The notes under the pieces: generated by a model
The model's input: the letters and a program-made list of their open reading frames with translations, nothing else
Told to the model about the DNA's origin: nothing
The model's database searches: none
In this document: piece by piece, positions 19,031 through 41,876 of the stretch
How positions within the stretch are numbered: position 1 is the first letter of the stretch
Layout: each line of letters opens with the position of its first letter
Position numbers and translations under genes: made by a program
Source: an uncultured Methanomicrobiales archaeon
GTDB lineage: Archaea > Halobacteriota > Methanomicrobia > Methanomicrobiales > Methanospirillaceae
Direction of reading: 5' to 3'
Length of the DNA: 50,540 nucleotides
Assembly: GCA_903828975.1 (NCBI GenBank)
Contig: CAIKOD010000078.1
Coordinates: forward strand, 1 to 50,540

Positions 19031-19293
19031 GGCCTTGTTGAAACCGTGCGTGTTTAGAAAAAGGAAGGGAAAATACGTAGACAGGAGGGGGTCTCACCCC
19101 CTCCCTGTCCCACCCCTGTAAGATATTCACCGGGCAGGGTTCAACTGCAGAATTCCCCAAAATTTCAGAGATTAAAAGACCATTCCCTATCCCAACCGGG
19201 GTCGCTAAAGCAGCGGGGCAGAGTCCCGGGAGCGTGGGAAATTTGGGAATACTCTAATCTACAAGATAGATTCCAGCGCATTTCAACAAAGCC
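19031..19293 (-). mobile_element. MITE-like element, copy C (short form, 263 bp)
   Basis: Ends GGCCTTGTTGAAAC and TTTCAACAAAGCC are good inverted repeats. Flanking 8-mers CTATACCT and ATTTTTTT do not match, so no target duplication survives. The core is in minus orientation. The first hairpin reads CGCT-AAAGC-AGCG on the plus strand where copies D and G have CGCC...GGCG: a paired change (T-A for C-G) that keeps the stem. The second hairpin also stays perfect with a changed loop (GAG for GAA). It lies between the MutY-like gene and the gene starting at 19373. Confidence 0.75.
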
Positions 19294-20056: not shown

Positions 20057-20101
20057 CAGGAAGTTTAACGTTATTTAAGTATCTCGTCTGAAGATAATTC
20101 T

Positions 20102-20141
20102 CTGTTATAATAATTTGGGGTTTCCCACATCGTTATAACAG
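20102..20141 (+). terminator. possible stem-loop terminator after the 19373 gene
   Basis: Perfect 9-bp inverted repeat CTGTTATAA (20102-20110) and TTATAACAG (20133-20141) around a 22-nt loop, 46 bp after the stop. No T-tract follows directly, so it may be an operator or processing site instead. Confidence 0.3.
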
Positions 20142-20183
20142 GAATGAAACACGAGGTCCACAGGCAGGAAGTTTGGCATTTTC

Positions 20184-20617
20184 GGCTCTGTTGAAACACA
20201 TATGAACTGGAAGTTCACACCCGGACCATTGAAAACACCTCGTTTAAAAAATCTCCATATATTGGGGTCCGTTCAGGTATTTATTATGAAAATGCCACCC
20301 GGGGTATTCAATTTTCATCCTGTATGCTTGTGGCCTTCCGGCATCATGTCCGTTTTCATGGGAAATCCTACGCGGGAAAAAAAATAACAGAACTGCTCAG
20401 ACAGGAGGGGGTTTCACCCCCTCCCTGTCCCACCTCCATTAAGATAATCCTGGGCAGGATCCGATTCAGGCATTCAAAGAAAAATTTCAGAGATTGTTTA
20501 GATCATCCCCTATCCCAACCGGGGCCGCCAAAGCGGCGGGGCGGAGCCCCGGGAGAGTGATTACATTTTGGAATACCCTAATCTTAAAGATAGATGTTAG
20601 ATCAATTCAACAAAGAC
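20184..20617 (-). mobile_element. MITE-like element, copy D (long form, 434 bp)
   Basis: Left end GGCTCTGTTGAAAC, right end TTCAACAAAGAC. Flanks GCATTTTC (20176-20183) and GTATTTTC (20618-20625) match at 7 of 8: a clear target duplication. On the minus strand, from the right end, come the GC-rich hairpin, the CCTGCCC region, the 9-bp GGAGGGGGT hairpin and a T-tract. Then follows the fullest form of module 2 in this orientation (about 20184-20380), ending in the TGAACTTCCAGTTCA hairpin. Lies between two converging genes. Confidence 0.85.
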
Positions 20618-20649
20618 GTATTTTCATCTTATCCGGCAGTAATTTCTAA

Positions 20650-22212
20650 TTACCTGCCCTGAAATAGCAGCCAGTCATTTTTTCCTGCCCGTTTAAACCT
20701 GACCAGAACATATGGCCCCTCCAGTCTCTTTCCGTGGAAGGTGATCTCTATCTTGTCATTATCCCAGTGTTTTGTCACATAGTGTCCGTTATCCCAGATC
20801 GTGACAGTACCGGCACCATATTCCCCTTTCGGGATCGTCCCCTCGAAATGCCCGTAATCCAGCGGGTGGTCCTCAACTGCCACTGCCAGGTGCTTTTCAC
20901 TGTGGGTAAGCGGCACCCCTTTCGGTACTGCCCAGCTCTTCAGTACACCATCACGCTCGAGCCTTACATCAAAATGAAGGTTCCTTGCACGGTGTTCAAG
21001 GACCACAAAATAATTTCCCTCATCCGCAGTCACATTATCACCTTCTGGTTCCGGTGTTACCGTAAAATTCCTGATCTTGCGGTATTTTTTCAATGCTACC
21101 TCTGCCGGAACCCCTATTTCCTCAGCAACCGGAATGTCCTGGTGTATCGTTACGGATGTGCCGCCCTTACCTGCCTGCTTTTCAGCCCACGGTACCCCCA
21201 CGGTATCAATCTGATCGACCGTACATTCACCCGGTTTTTTATCTGAACGGAGACGGATAAACCCTGGAATACGTAATTTCCGATCTCTTGTCACAGACTG
21301 GTAGGAAACTTCGCATACGAGGGCAGGTATCAGCCATGCAACTCCCTTCCCGGGCTCCACACCGGTGAGATGCGGGGTGTCTGTTTCGTACTGCAGGAAC
21401 AGGTCTTTTAACAGGGTCAGGTCCCGGTCTTTAAATCCGGAACCAACCTTACCAATGTAGATCAGGTCGCGGGTATTGTTTTCAGGGCCACGGTTTGAGC
21501 TGCCATTTCCAGGATCGCTTCCATTTTCGCGCTGTCGTGTTCCATATTTATAGAGGCCGAGGATCAGTGCACCGAACTGTGTGGAACGACCCCCCTTTCC
21601 CCGTGTATACCCGGAAATCACGCAATCGCAGGTTTTCTGTTGCTTGATTTTCAGCCAGCTGCTGCTCCGGACACCTGGCTCATACACGCTGTCCAATCGT
21701 TTCGCCATTACTCCTTCCAGCCCTTTCCGGACGGCTGCCTGGTAATATTCAGTCCCCTGGGACTCTACAGGTTCGGAAATTACGACATGTGGCCCTTCCT
21801 TCACCCGCTTTTGGAGTATCTGTCTTCGTTCGGTAAGAGGAAGGTTAACCAGTGGGACGCCGTCCTGTTCGAGGATGTCAAAAACAATGTAGGTAACCGG
21901 GCTGATCCCTGCAGGCTGAGGTGTCCACCCCTGGGAAGTAATTCTCGGCAGGAGCTCCTGTATATCAGGTCGTCCTCCTGACATTGCCACGATTTCCCCG
22001 TCAAGCACGGTTCGGGGGGCCAGTTCTAGAAGTTCTGCCAGTTCCGGGAAACTGCCGGTGAGTTCCTTATCATTACGGCTCCGGATTAACAGCCCCTCAT
22101 TTACATATGCGATCGCACGGACCCCGTCCCATTTTATCTCAAATAGCCATTCGTCGCTTGAAAATGGTCCATCAGCAGGTTTTGAACTCATCGGGAGGTA
22201 ATGGTGTGTCAT
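20650..22212 (-). CDS. ligD: ATP-dependent DNA ligase fused to C-terminal LigD 3'-phosphoesterase domain
   Basis: NHEJ ligase of 520 aa. Residues 1-200 are the adenylation domain with EIKWDGVR (Lys27 is the AMP acceptor), DGEIVA and the EGVMAKR motif. The OB domain (about 205-330) holds an unusual Gly/Asn/Ser-rich insert (about 228-252). Residues about 395-520 are a 3'-phosphoesterase with His407, His413, Asp415 and Arg417 in LEHRARNLHFDVRLE and SWAVPKG, which trims 3' ribonucleotides or phosphates before ligation. In Pseudomonas LigD the order is PE-LIG-POL and in mycobacteria POL-PE-LIG; in Methanocella the parts are separate genes. LIG-PE with separate POL is therefore notable. Starts 19 bp after ku stops. 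Confidence 0.88.
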   Translation of the reverse strand: MTHHYLPMSSKPADGPFSSDEWLFEIKWDGVRAIAYVNEGLLIRSRNDKELTGSFPELAELLELAPRTVLDGEIVAMSGGRPDIQELLPRITSQGWTPQPAGISPVTYIVFDILEQDGVPLVNLPLTERRQILQKRVKEGPHVVISEPVESQGTEYYQAAVRKGLEGVMAKRLDSVYEPGVRSSSWLKIKQQKTCDCVISGYTRGKGGRSTQFGALILGLYKYGTRQRENGSDPGNGSSNRGPENNTRDLIYIGKVGSGFKDRDLTLLKDLFLQYETDTPHLTGVEPGKGVAWLIPALVCEVSYQSVTRDRKLRIPGFIRLRSDKKPGECTVDQIDTVGVPWAEKQAGKGGTSVTIHQDIPVAEEIGVPAEVALKKYRKIRNFTVTPEPEGDNVTADEGNYFVVLEHRARNLHFDVRLERDGVLKSWAVPKGVPLTHSEKHLAVAVEDHPLDYGHFEGTIPKGEYGAGTVTIWDNGHYVTKHWDNDKIEITFHGKRLEGPYVLVRFKRAGKNDWLLFQGR

Positions 22213-22231
22213 CGTCTGAAAAACCCGGGCT

Positions 22232-23152
22232 TTATTTTCCCTGTAATGCTGCCAGAGTCTCCTTTAACGCCTGCATCAGCTCTTTTGCCTCTTCCGGGTG
22301 AGGGCTCTCGTACACGATCTTTTCTCCGGCAAGTTTTTTATTCACTATCTTTTCGACAGCCTCCCGGTAGGTATCATGGTAGTCCGCAATCGAGAAGTCC
22401 CCGGAAAGGTCTGAAATGATCCGCCTGGCAAGTTCGAGCTCGGCTTCCCGGGGCACCGGCAGCCTGGTAATCGCCTCAAAAGCATCCGGAGATGTCACCT
22501 CGTCCGCATACCGGAGAGTGGTCAGGATAAGACCTCCCCGGTACCCGTGTACAACTACAGGGTACTCCTTTGTACGCAGGGTAATTGTCCCAACGGCAGC
22601 CCGGCCAAGGTCAACGAGAGCCGTGCGGAGGAGGCTGTATGCCTCTTCACTCCGATCCGGGGTAAGAATATACGGGGTTCCGAAATGCACCGGGTCGAGG
22701 GAGAGTGAATATACAAATTTCTCTATCCTGATTTTCCGGTCAGACACGGGAGCAATCGCCTTTAAGTCAGATGGTTCGATGACAACATACTCTCCTTTCC
22801 GTACCTCGTATCCTTTCACGGTCTCCGCCCATGGTACCACCTTTCCGTCCCTTGTACAGACCCGGTCATACCGGAGCGGCTGTGCATCATCACGATGGAG
22901 CAGCCTGAAGGAAAATGACTTGTCCCTGACCATGGTATGAAGGTGTACGGGGACGTTCACAAGCCCGATCGTGATACTCCCGCTCCAGAATGGTCTTCCG
23001 GCTATGTCATGCCGGTCATCCGGGCTTCCGCCATGGAGTCCTGGTTGGTCTTCTGTGAGGGAGCCTGTTTTTTCTTCATGATGAAGTGGTGCAGGTTCCG
23101 GAACTGGTTGAGGTATATGCCCTGTATTTTTTTGTATGGTTTGCTTTTTCAT
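22232..23152 (-). CDS. ku: NHEJ end-binding protein Ku
   Basis: Homodimeric ring that binds double-strand DNA ends and recruits the polymerase and ligase encoded beside it. The core begins at RPFWSGSITIGLVNVPV and runs through the beta-barrel bridge (KGYEVRKGEYVVIEP) to the C-terminal helices. Start 23152 is chosen because GGAG at 23162-23159 lies 6 bp before it and only 16 bp separate it from the polymerase stop. The frame is open to 23197. Either way the core is preceded by about 50 extra residues (Pro, Glu and His rich) that bacterial Ku proteins lack. Order on the minus strand: POL, Ku, LIG-PE. Confidence 0.93.
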   Translation of the reverse strand: MKKQTIQKNTGHIPQPVPEPAPLHHEEKTGSLTEDQPGLHGGSPDDRHDIAGRPFWSGSITIGLVNVPVHLHTMVRDKSFSFRLLHRDDAQPLRYDRVCTRDGKVVPWAETVKGYEVRKGEYVVIEPSDLKAIAPVSDRKIRIEKFVYSLSLDPVHFGTPYILTPDRSEEAYSLLRTALVDLGRAAVGTITLRTKEYPVVVHGYRGGLILTTLRYADEVTSPDAFEAITRLPVPREAELELARRIISDLSGDFSIADYHDTYREAVEKIVNKKLAGEKIVYESPHPEEAKELMQALKETLAALQGK

Positions 23153-23168
23153 CTCTTGCTCCGCTTTA

Positions 23169-24065
23169 TTAGTCCCCGATTTTCTGCCTGTTGTCAAATA
23201 GTTCCCTCCATGGCTCCTTATCTCTCGATAGTATGGTGCGAATGGTAAAGTCTTCGGCCCTGACTCCGGTTATCAGTTCTTCCCAGTTAACGGGGGTTGA
23301 AACGGTTGCCTCCGGTGAACCCCGGAGACTGTAGGGAGCAACCATTGTCTTTCCCTGAGCGTTCTGCAGGTAATCGATAAATATTGTTCCGGGATCGCGT
23401 GAATGTGGAAACTCTGATACAACGTGCGGTGTATCTTTTGCGATGGCTTTCCCGATACGGTGTGCAAACGCCCGTGTCATATCAAACCGGTACCCTGGTA
23501 CAAGTGGGACAATAATATGGAGGCCTTTCTTTCCAGACGTCTTCACATACGGTACGAGTCCTTCATTTCCCAGGTGGTTCCGGACAATATGTGCCACCTG
23601 GATGACGTCATCAAACGTAAGCGGTGGTTCGGGATCGATATCGAAAAGGAGGAAATCAGGGCTTTCATATGATCCTGTTGTTGAGAGCGAGATGTGCAGT
23701 TCCAGTGATGCGAGGTTTGCGAGCCACAGGAGCGTATCGAGGTTGTTGCAGAGGACATACCTTACCTGCCTGCCGGCGGTCTCCGAGGATCTTGGAAAAA
23801 TTTCAACATAACCGGGCGTGCCTCGTGGAGCATTCTTTTCGTAAAATTCAGACCCACTTATCCCATCAGGATATCTGTGCATTGTCAGTGGACGGTTATT
23901 AAGAAACGGAAGAATTTTTGGGGCTATCCGGATATAATATTCAAGTACCTGCTGTTTGGTTATCCCCGGGAGAGGGTAAAGTATTTTTTTTAGGTTTGTA
24001 AAATGGGCACGGCTGAGGGCTCCCCACGCATCCTGTCCATGTGCTGGTCCGCCTGTCCCTGTCAT
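23169..24065 (-). CDS. LigD-type NHEJ polymerase/primase
   Basis: Archaeo-eukaryotic primase-fold polymerase that fills gaps during end joining, preferring ribonucleotides. 298 aa, a stand-alone equivalent of the LigD POL domain. Seen: the opening region SRAHFTNLKKILYP, NNRPLTMHRYPDG, the catalytic DFLLFDIDP with Asp142 and Asp144, and TSGKKGLHI, all hallmarks of the family. First gene of a compact three-gene operon with a TATA-like box at 24098-24108. No fused ligase or phosphoesterase is attached. Confidence 0.92.
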   Translation of the reverse strand: MTGTGGPAHGQDAWGALSRAHFTNLKKILYPLPGITKQQVLEYYIRIAPKILPFLNNRPLTMHRYPDGISGSEFYEKNAPRGTPGYVEIFPRSSETAGRQVRYVLCNNLDTLLWLANLASLELHISLSTTGSYESPDFLLFDIDPEPPLTFDDVIQVAHIVRNHLGNEGLVPYVKTSGKKGLHIIVPLVPGYRFDMTRAFAHRIGKAIAKDTPHVVSEFPHSRDPGTIFIDYLQNAQGKTMVAPYSLRGSPEATVSTPVNWEELITGVRAEDFTIRTILSRDKEPWRELFDNRQKIGD

Positions 24066-24097
24066 TGATCCAGTCCTGGTCCCGGGCTACCGACACC

Positions 24098-24108
24098 TTA
24101 TTTTAAAA
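24098..24108 (-). promoter_or_regulatory. TATA box of the NHEJ operon
   Basis: The minus strand reads TTTTAAAATAA, 33-43 bp before the polymerase start at 24065. It merges with the T-tract that may end the small upstream gene, so terminator and promoter overlap. Confidence 0.45.
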
Positions 24109-24142
24109 ACCGCTGGTCCCCCCGTTTTTAAGAAAGGGGGGA
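24106..24142 (-). terminator. hairpin plus U-tract after the small membrane protein gene
   Basis: A perfect 7-bp stem, TCCCCCC (24117-24123) with GGGGGGA (24136-24142), followed on the minus strand by five Ts at 24110-24106. Located just past the stop at 24164. Confidence 0.5.
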
Positions 24143-24163: not shown

Positions 24164-24343
24164 TTACCCTCGCATGTAGTACCCGATCAGGATGAGCAGG
24201 AGCCCGGAATAGAACATGATAGCCCACGGCCATGCAAAGCCGAGCTGGATTGTTGAAAGGCCTTTTAAGTCCTGTAGAAGGACGAGAATAAATCCCGCGA
24301 TAAAACAAATGAGGCTGATATCATTTTTTACCTTTTTATCCAT
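24164..24343 (-). CDS. small two-helix membrane protein
   Basis: A 59-residue gene. It begins MDKKVKNDISLICF and has two hydrophobic helices (about 10-25 and 38-56) joined by a short polar loop containing a QDLKGLS stretch. A clean GGAGGT ribosome site lies at 24354-24349. A TATA box at 24385-24393 and a hairpin terminator downstream support a real gene. Function unknown. It precedes the NHEJ operon but has its own terminator, so no functional link is claimed. Confidence 0.7.
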   Translation of the reverse strand: MDKKVKNDISLICFIAGFILVLLQDLKGLSTIQLGFAWPWAIMFYSGLLLILIGYYMRG

Positions 24344-24384
24344 TCATTACCTCCGGATTGAATATTAGATATGTACCCTGCCCC

Positions 24385-24498: not shown

Positions 24499-24759
24499 GG
24501 CTTGTTGAACCCCTTTCAATCTGTCTTGTGCATTAGGTTATTCCAAAATTTATTCACGCTCCCGGGGCTCCGCCCCGCCGCTTTGGCGGCCCCGGTTGAG
24601 ATAGGGGATGATCTCACAATCTCTGAAATTTTTCTTTGAATGCCCGAAATGGATCCTGCCCAGGATTATCTTAACGGGGTGGGACAAAGAGGGGGTGAAA
24701 CCCCCTCCTAAATGGGCAGTTCTGTTAATTTTTTTTAAGCGCAGGATTTCTACAGAGTC
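24499..24759 (+). mobile_element. MITE-like element, copy E (short form, 261 bp)
   Basis: Starts GGCTTGTTGAAC and ends TTTCTACAGAGTC. Flanks GAATACTA and GATATTTA agree at only 4 of 8, so the target duplication is not supported. The core (about 24557-24713) is the cleanest: CCGGGG...CCCCGG enclosing the GC-rich hairpins at 24562-24595, then GAGGGGGT-GAA-ACCCCCTC and eight Ts at 24729-24736. Sits past the 3' end of cbiE and upstream of the small membrane protein gene. Confidence 0.7.
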
Positions 24760-24811
24760 GATATTTACTCTCTACAGCGCCGGCACGAGCAATAATAGCA
24801 TGTAACGCTGG

Positions 24812-41407: not shown

Positions 41408-41876
41408 GGCCTTGTTGAAATCCTATACCGGATAAAAAAATTAAGGCTTTGTTGAAACCCTTCGGGGTCATAAACAAGAAGAGGGAAATACGAAGACCTG
41501 GAGGGGGTTTCACCCCCTCCCTGCCCCACCCCCGTTAAGATATTCTTGGACAGGGTTAAATTGGGGCATTCAAAGAAAAATTTCAGAGATTTGGAGATCA
41601 TACCCTATCCCAACCGGGGTCGCCAAAGTGGCGGGGCGGAGCCCCGGGAGCGTGACTAAATTTTGGAATAAATTAATGTACAAAGTAGATTGAAAGGATT
41701 TCCCATGAAAACTAACATGATTCACTTGTGTGTCACAGGCATACAGGGTGAAAATTGGATGCTCGCGGTCAGTTTCATATTAACTACCTGAACGGAACCC
41801 AATAGGAGGAATTTTTAGCGAAACATTTCAATGGTCCGGGCGTGAAGCTCCCGTTCATGTGTGTTTCAACCGGGCC
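41408..41876 (-). mobile_element. MITE-like element, copy G (rearranged long form, 469 bp, perfect target duplication)
   Basis: Ends GGCCTTGTTGAAAT and GTTTCAACCGGGCC are inverted repeats. The flanks are identical, GGAAAACC at 41400-41407 and 41877-41884: a perfect 8-bp target duplication that fixes the boundaries. A second left end, GGCTTTGTTGAAACCC, lies inside at about 41444. The hairpin core (41500-41655) is in minus orientation, but module 2 (about 41698-41876) is in plus orientation, opposite to copies A, D and F. No transposase frame. Confidence 0.88.

Follow-up and report, generated by a model that had tools for sequence, protein, structure and literature searches.

The window, i.e. 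the whole stretch of DNA that was analysed (50,540 bases), is the complete contig C78 of a draft metagenome assembly of 2.58 Mb in 186 contigs (97.8 % complete), and the named relatives of this genome are Methanoregula and Methanoregulaceae. It harbours genes for a LigD-type primase-polymerase (POL), for Ku and for an NHEJ-type ligase (LIG) that carries a 3'-phosphoesterase (PE) at its C-terminus (Table 1). Open reading frames, Pfam and NCBIfam agree on the tight operon and on the ligase-phosphoesterase fusion that the first-pass annotation had placed here. All three genes lie on the minus strand with gaps of 16 and 19 bases, and this close spacing indicates a predicted operon. The open frame of Ku starts upstream of the ATG, at TTG 23197, and overlaps POL. 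As there is no in-frame ATG between 23152 and the conserved core, Ku is read with an N-terminal extension of ~50 amino acids. The GC content of the block (0.48-0.53) is close to that of the surrounding DNA. Promoter and terminator scans with bacterial-type models, which do not extend to archaeal promoters, gave nothing above shuffled sequences.

Table 1 Features of the POL-Ku-(LIG-PE) locus (positions in the window)
Feature	Position	Strand	Remarks
POL, LigD-type primase-polymerase	23169..24065	-	298 aa; separate gene, first of the operon
Ku	22232..23152	-	306 aa from ATG at 23152
LIG-PE fusion	20650..22212	-	520 aa; ligase ~1-337, linker ~338-383, 3'-phosphoesterase ~374-518
LIG half (adenylation and OB domains, Lys27 nucleophile)	21202..22212	-	Pfam residues 18-190 and 244-325; PDB 1vs0
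PE half (H407, H413, D415, R417, E447, H449, Y453)	20659..21093	-	TIGR02777 residues 374-518; PDB 3p43, 2lj6, 5dmp
Segment with operon and one dispersed-repeat copy, missing from the same site in congener G003	20059..24117		blastn of window versus L301
Small membrane-protein gene	24168..24347	-	59 aa; directly upstream of POL; flanking marker outside the operon

The LIG-PE chain matched the Pfam families DNA_ligase_A_M (5e-33), DNA_ligase_A_C (5e-18) and, with its PE part, LigD_N (7e-39, residues 406-505), while Ku (2.1e-37) and POL (LigD_Prim-Pol, 1.7e-81) matched their respective families. Judged from the sequences, these matches are far beyond chance. The NCBIfam models NHEJ_ligase_lig, LigD_PE_dom, Ku_bact and ligD_pol all exceeded their cut-offs. 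Ku scored as a single-domain Ku (TIGR02772, 247.9 bits with a cut-off of 150), LIG as an NHEJ-type ATP-dependent ligase (TIGR02779, 239.8 bits with a cut-off of 227.75), POL as a LigD-type polymerase (TIGR02778, 251.1 versus 214.7 bits) and PE as a LigD 3'-phosphoesterase (TIGR02777, 178.5 versus 144 bits). The structure matched by the LIG half is the LIG domain of M. tuberculosis LigD; the best PDB match of POL is the Methanocella NHEJ polymerase (5dmu) and Ku matched 9vnq. The active residues named in the first-pass annotation were found exactly as claimed: Lys27 of LIG in a KxDG motif (K27-W-D-G), Asp142 and Asp144 of POL in an hhhDhD motif (LLFDID), and His407, His413 and Asp415 of PE. Furthermore, H183 and D232 of POL sit in matching motifs. 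The catalytic set of PE, known from the Pseudomonas and Methanocella enzymes (PMC8656161, PMC4797286), is conserved: besides the two histidines and Asp415, residues Arg417, Glu447, His449 and Tyr453 are present, and all seven are invariant in an alignment of 11 fusions.

An AlphaFold2 model of LIG-PE, built from an 11-row alignment, was of moderate quality (mean pLDDT 73, pTM 0.50). Confidence was low at residues 226-246, an insertion that is variable among homologues, and at residues 338-383 between LIG and PE. The latter stretch is consistent with a flexible tether, and the ~45-residue linker in the model is probably flexible. A Foldseek search with this model retrieved ATP-dependent ligases, including the LIG domain of LigD. 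No PE structure was present among the first 50 rows, and the assignment of PE is therefore based on sequence.

The likeness to known systems is clear at the level of function. The NHEJ system of Methanocella paludicola has the same four functions (Ku, Pol, PE and Lig), and its PE is operonic with Pol and ligase (PMC4797286). In agreement with the first-pass annotation, Pol and PE of Methanocella have been studied as separate proteins (PDB 5dmu and 5dmp; PMC4797286), whereas in the window PE makes up the C-terminal part of the same chain as the ligase. Bacterial LigD, with Ku encoded alongside, contains the same LIG, PE and POL families and catalytic residues. Its domain order varies (POL-PE-LIG in M. 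tuberculosis, PE-LIG-POL in P. aeruginosa and LIG-POL in B. subtilis), but the window differs from a single-chain LigD in having POL on a separate gene and LIG ahead of PE; full-length LigD models matched the window proteins only partially and below cut-off. A class of "Nonconventional NHEJ" has been defined that allows Ku and LIG with PE on the same protein, in a scheme that also allows the LigD domains to be split over several proteins (Sharda et al. 2020, PMC7719229). In the accessible text of that paper the class is bacterial and domain order is disregarded, and a conserved archaeal POL-Ku-(LIG-PE) operon is not described.

Taken over from the protein families, a scheme for the operon can be proposed. 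A Ku homodimer would thread onto the broken DNA end and recruit the enzymes. POL would align the ends and fill gaps, with a preference for ribonucleotides, PE would trim surplus 3'-ribonucleotides and take off 3'-phosphates, and LIG, charged with AMP on Lys27, would seal the break. End-cleaning and sealing would be combined on one chain through the probably flexible linker, while POL would act in trans. The biochemistry of the separate NHEJ parts has been described (PMC4797286, PMC8656161).

The domain order of the fusion was compared with that of other genomes using the best 80 of at least 586 genome loci matching the LIG-PE alignment. Within these 80, all 59 bacterial chains with both PE and LIG have PE first (40 PE-LIG-POL, 14 PE-LIG and 5 POL-PE-LIG), in line with the earlier claim about bacterial LigD, and a LIG-PE chain was found in none of the 59. 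Two chains of Nitrososphaerota are also PE-first. The order LIG-PE was seen, among the same best 80 of at least 586 loci, only in the phylum of the window itself and in records named methanogens or Methanosarcinales; with a sample of this size, bacterial LIG-PE chains may exist elsewhere. In viral contigs, no LIG-PE chain was found in the best 80 loci, and the sole PE and LIG chains among these (L311, L358) are PE-first and accompanied by Ku. A virus-borne origin of the fusion was rejected on the basis of these 80 viral-contig loci.

The first-pass annotation held NHEJ of this type to be rare in archaea. In this strong form the statement does not hold: of 101 relatives, 20 have Ku (12 of the 79 good genomes among them), and among 394 genomes sampled from the phylum, 64 have it (45 of the 322 good ones, ~14 % or about one in seven). 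Ku is absent from the congeners G001 and G003, the latter genome being 98 % complete. End-to-end matches to the LIG-PE profile were obtained in 7 of the 394 phylum genomes, two of which (G379, G423) belong to other families. In all, at least 10 genomes or loci besides the window carry LIG-PE, and they represent two families of the window's order and two more families elsewhere in the phylum. Genes are arranged as POL-Ku-(LIG-PE) in the window, in G053, G047, G005, G016, G062, G379 and G423, and also in Methanoregula UBA154 and in a Methanosarcinales MAG. The contig of G002 begins inside Ku, which is followed by LIG-PE in the same order. A LIG of Bathyarchaeota (L119, 52 % identity) is a truncated frame without PE, possibly misbinned, and was left out. 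A search of the PubMed Central literature, whose coverage is incomplete, found no paper on NHEJ in Methanoregula. The arrangement had been called unusual, and this stands for the domain order, opposite to that of all bacterial chains sampled, but not for its novelty. Indeed, fusions being common in related methanogens had been named beforehand as the finding that would undo the novelty, and the further occurrences largely amount to this.

The recurrence of LIG-PE in 10 independent genomes or loci, with invariant catalytic residues, also refutes the thought that two genes were joined into one frame by faulty assembly, which the draft state of the window genome might have brought up and for which the probability is next to nil. 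The surroundings of the operon inform on its history. In the window it is flanked by the small membrane-protein gene and cbiE at one end, and by a hypothetical gene and a mutY-like gene at the other. A genome of another genus, G005, shows cbiG-H-C-D-E, a small gene, POL-Ku-(LIG-PE) and mutY in matching arrangement, and the locus of G002 agrees with the window as far as its contig reaches. In G003 the flanking genes are contiguous and the operon is absent, the alignment ending at window position ~20058 and resuming at ~24118; in G010 the neighbouring genes are close together without the operon. The small gene is kept in both G003 and G010 as well as in G005. As the locus is common to two genera, old residence with losses is favoured over recent arrival, which suggests old vertical inheritance of the operon and not a recent bacterial transfer. 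Recent horizontal transfer from bacteria into the window genome could be argued from the families shared with bacteria by all operon proteins, the patchy distribution of Ku even within the genus, the bacterial POL-PE-LIG chains that are the nearest non-archaeal rows in the LIG tree (support 90), and the ancient exchange between archaea and bacteria that is documented (PMC7719229). However, Ku and POL cluster with archaea at 98-99, the operon occupies the same locus in two genera, its GC content is close to that of its surroundings and the LIG-PE order is absent from the bacterial chains sampled, making such a transfer improbable. The label "bacterial-type" given earlier is appropriate for the protein families, but in the present trees Ku and POL are placed in archaeal clades outside the sampled bacteria. 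Inverted repeats of ~220 bp flank the operon (20362-20574 and 24540-24760), GC-rich and 90 % identical in opposite orientation, and could suggest a mobile cassette. Yet at least 40 separate copies of this repeat are scattered over the genome (206 candidates, of which 40 were scored), four of them in the window; the small gene retained by G003 lies between the operon and the right-hand copy, and G003 misses each copy independently. Compared with G003, these dispersed repeats vary independently of the operon, and a cassette bounded by them was rejected as highly improbable.

Related archaea have other layouts of the same functions. Operons of POL-Ku-PE without LIG were found in the genera g16 and g11, in Methanolinea UBA473 and in G410, and at loci of Methanolinea-type genomes (L053, L060, L065, L067, L142, L260 and others). 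Their Ku, POL and PE are sisters of those of the window and the gene order is the same, but LIG is missing from the operon. Unlinked LIGs were read in the POL-Ku-PE genomes G034, G027, G018, G040 and G410, and G016 has, besides a LIG-PE operon, a second LIG adjoining a second POL. In G067, POL and PE share one frame and Ku had no match. In family f7 (G101) a PE-POL chain has LIG and Ku as neighbours, and in f9 and f22 Ku adjoins LIG. Separately, Ku and LIG were observed fused in one chain of ~665 amino acids in family f10 of the phylum (L254, L255 and L256 whole, L257 and L258 partial), forming one clade in both the Ku and the LIG tree; the phrase Ku-ligase fusion returned no paper from the PubMed Central literature, of which coverage is incomplete.

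All 11 LIG-PE rows of the LIG tree, G016 included, fall into one clade (SH-aLRT 99). The window belongs to the archaeal POL-Ku-(LIG-PE) operon group as defined here, its LIG lying inside this clade and its gene order being that of the group. A second LIG of Methanomicrobiales (G016, G410, G077, G082, G027, G040, G018) forms a different clade (100), which holds the unlinked LIGs of the POL-Ku-PE genomes G018, G027, G040 and G410; that of G034 takes another position, likewise separate from LIG-PE. For Ku as well as for POL, the sequences from LIG-PE operons and from POL-Ku-PE operons join in a single archaeal clade (98), and the one in the Ku tree extends into a larger group consisting of archaea only (99). 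PE is too short for its tree to be well resolved. In a concatenated POL+Ku+PE tree with bacterial outgroup, a single clade of LIG-PE operons was rejected (p-AU 0.014), a rejection that hinges mainly on one genome, G016, and a single clade of POL-Ku-PE operons was not (p-AU 0.065). Such non-monophyly of the LIG-PE operons is expected if some descendants lost LIG. The LIG-PE join probably arose once, from the gene order Ku-LIG-PE, and in the sister POL-Ku-PE operons the LIG half was probably lost or exchanged, an unlinked NHEJ-type ligase taking over the sealing. One fusion followed by loss of LIG in some lineages is the simplest reading of the trees; the main alternative is that G016 could have received LIG-PE horizontally or exchanged its other parts. 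The PE tree, requiring up to 3 changes for LIG-PE, and the placement of G016 amid POL-Ku-PE lineages by Ku, POL and PE alike would also suit a history in which POL-Ku-PE is the older state and LIG-PE originated by several fusions or moved repeatedly between lineages. This history is considered rather unlikely, since the single clade of LIG halves with G016 inside it fits one fusion with later loss or transfer better than repeated fusion.

The LIG-PE operon is a real archaeal architectural variant of the known Ku/LigD NHEJ, neither unique to the window genome nor a new kind of system. To judge from protein sequences and gene order, it very probably represents an archaeal version of Ku/LigD NHEJ that is inherited in methanogens and their relatives as the three-gene operon POL-Ku-(LIG-PE). 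It is quite possible, and is proposed tentatively, that LIG-PE marks a distinct branch of archaeal NHEJ, in which end-cleaning is coupled to sealing, synthesis is supplied in trans, and the sister lineages have lost LIG and use an unrelated ligase in its place. If this is true, the operons would form a natural series (fused, split and exchanged) with which the importance of each domain join for end joining could be explored. Descriptions of archaeal NHEJ mostly come from a single organism, and the survey suggests that Ku-based end joining in this phylum has several domain arrangements, one of them in an order that the bacterial sample lacks. Bacterial LigD layouts alone are a poor guide for searches in archaea, and the archaeal layouts may serve as natural experiments on the coordination of polymerase, end-cleaning and ligase activities.

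A GC-rich dispersed repeat of ~220 bp with internal palindromes was found at four places in the window; the genome as a whole has at least 40 copies (206 candidates were counted at first look). The repeat gave no match in Rfam, and the copies near the NHEJ operon are missing from the congener G003. The small membrane-protein gene adjoining cbiE is kept in several genera, with or without the NHEJ operon.

Further domain orders of POL and PE were observed. In family f7 a PE-POL fusion adjoins separate LIG and Ku genes. G067, which belongs to the window's order and gave no match for Ku, has a POL-PE fusion frame. Besides its POL-Ku-(LIG-PE) operon, the genome G016 encodes another NHEJ ligase, distinct from the first, with an additional POL gene immediately after it. 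In G072 an in-frame TAG breaks up Ku and LIG is broken as well; NHEJ is apparently decaying in this genome. An open frame of G117 carries a Ku domain at its C-terminal end, and this Ku sits on a long branch.

Ku and the NHEJ ligase were found on one chain in five genomes of a single archaeal family (f10) of the window's phylum. In this layout Ku (residues ~5-265) precedes LIG (~290-605), followed by ~50 further residues, and the fused chains form one clade in the Ku tree as well as in the LIG tree. The novelty of this fusion is possibly above that of the LIG-PE operon of the window.

Coordinates of the features in the window and in the compared loci (L numbers)
Feature	Locus	Position	Strand	Remark
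~220-bp repeat	window	19083-19236		
~220-bp repeat	window	20362-20574		
~220-bp repeat	window	24540-24760		
~220-bp repeat	window	41500-41669		
Membrane-protein gene	window	24168-24347		59 aa
PE-POL fusion (f7)	L270	2824-4170	-	449 aa
POL-PE frame (G067)	L281	13327-15174	-	616-aa open frame
Second LIG and POL (G016)	L278	3535-5471	+	
Broken Ku and LIG (G072)	L069	6797-8646	+	
Frame with Ku domain (G117)	L259	3938-5473	+	512 aa
Ku-LIG fusion	L254	1340-3352	-	whole
Ku-LIG fusion	L255	3791-5794	+	whole
Ku-LIG fusion	L256	3288-5276	+	whole
Ku-LIG fusion	L257	3420-4556	-	partial
Ku-LIG fusion	L258	3746-4888	+	partial
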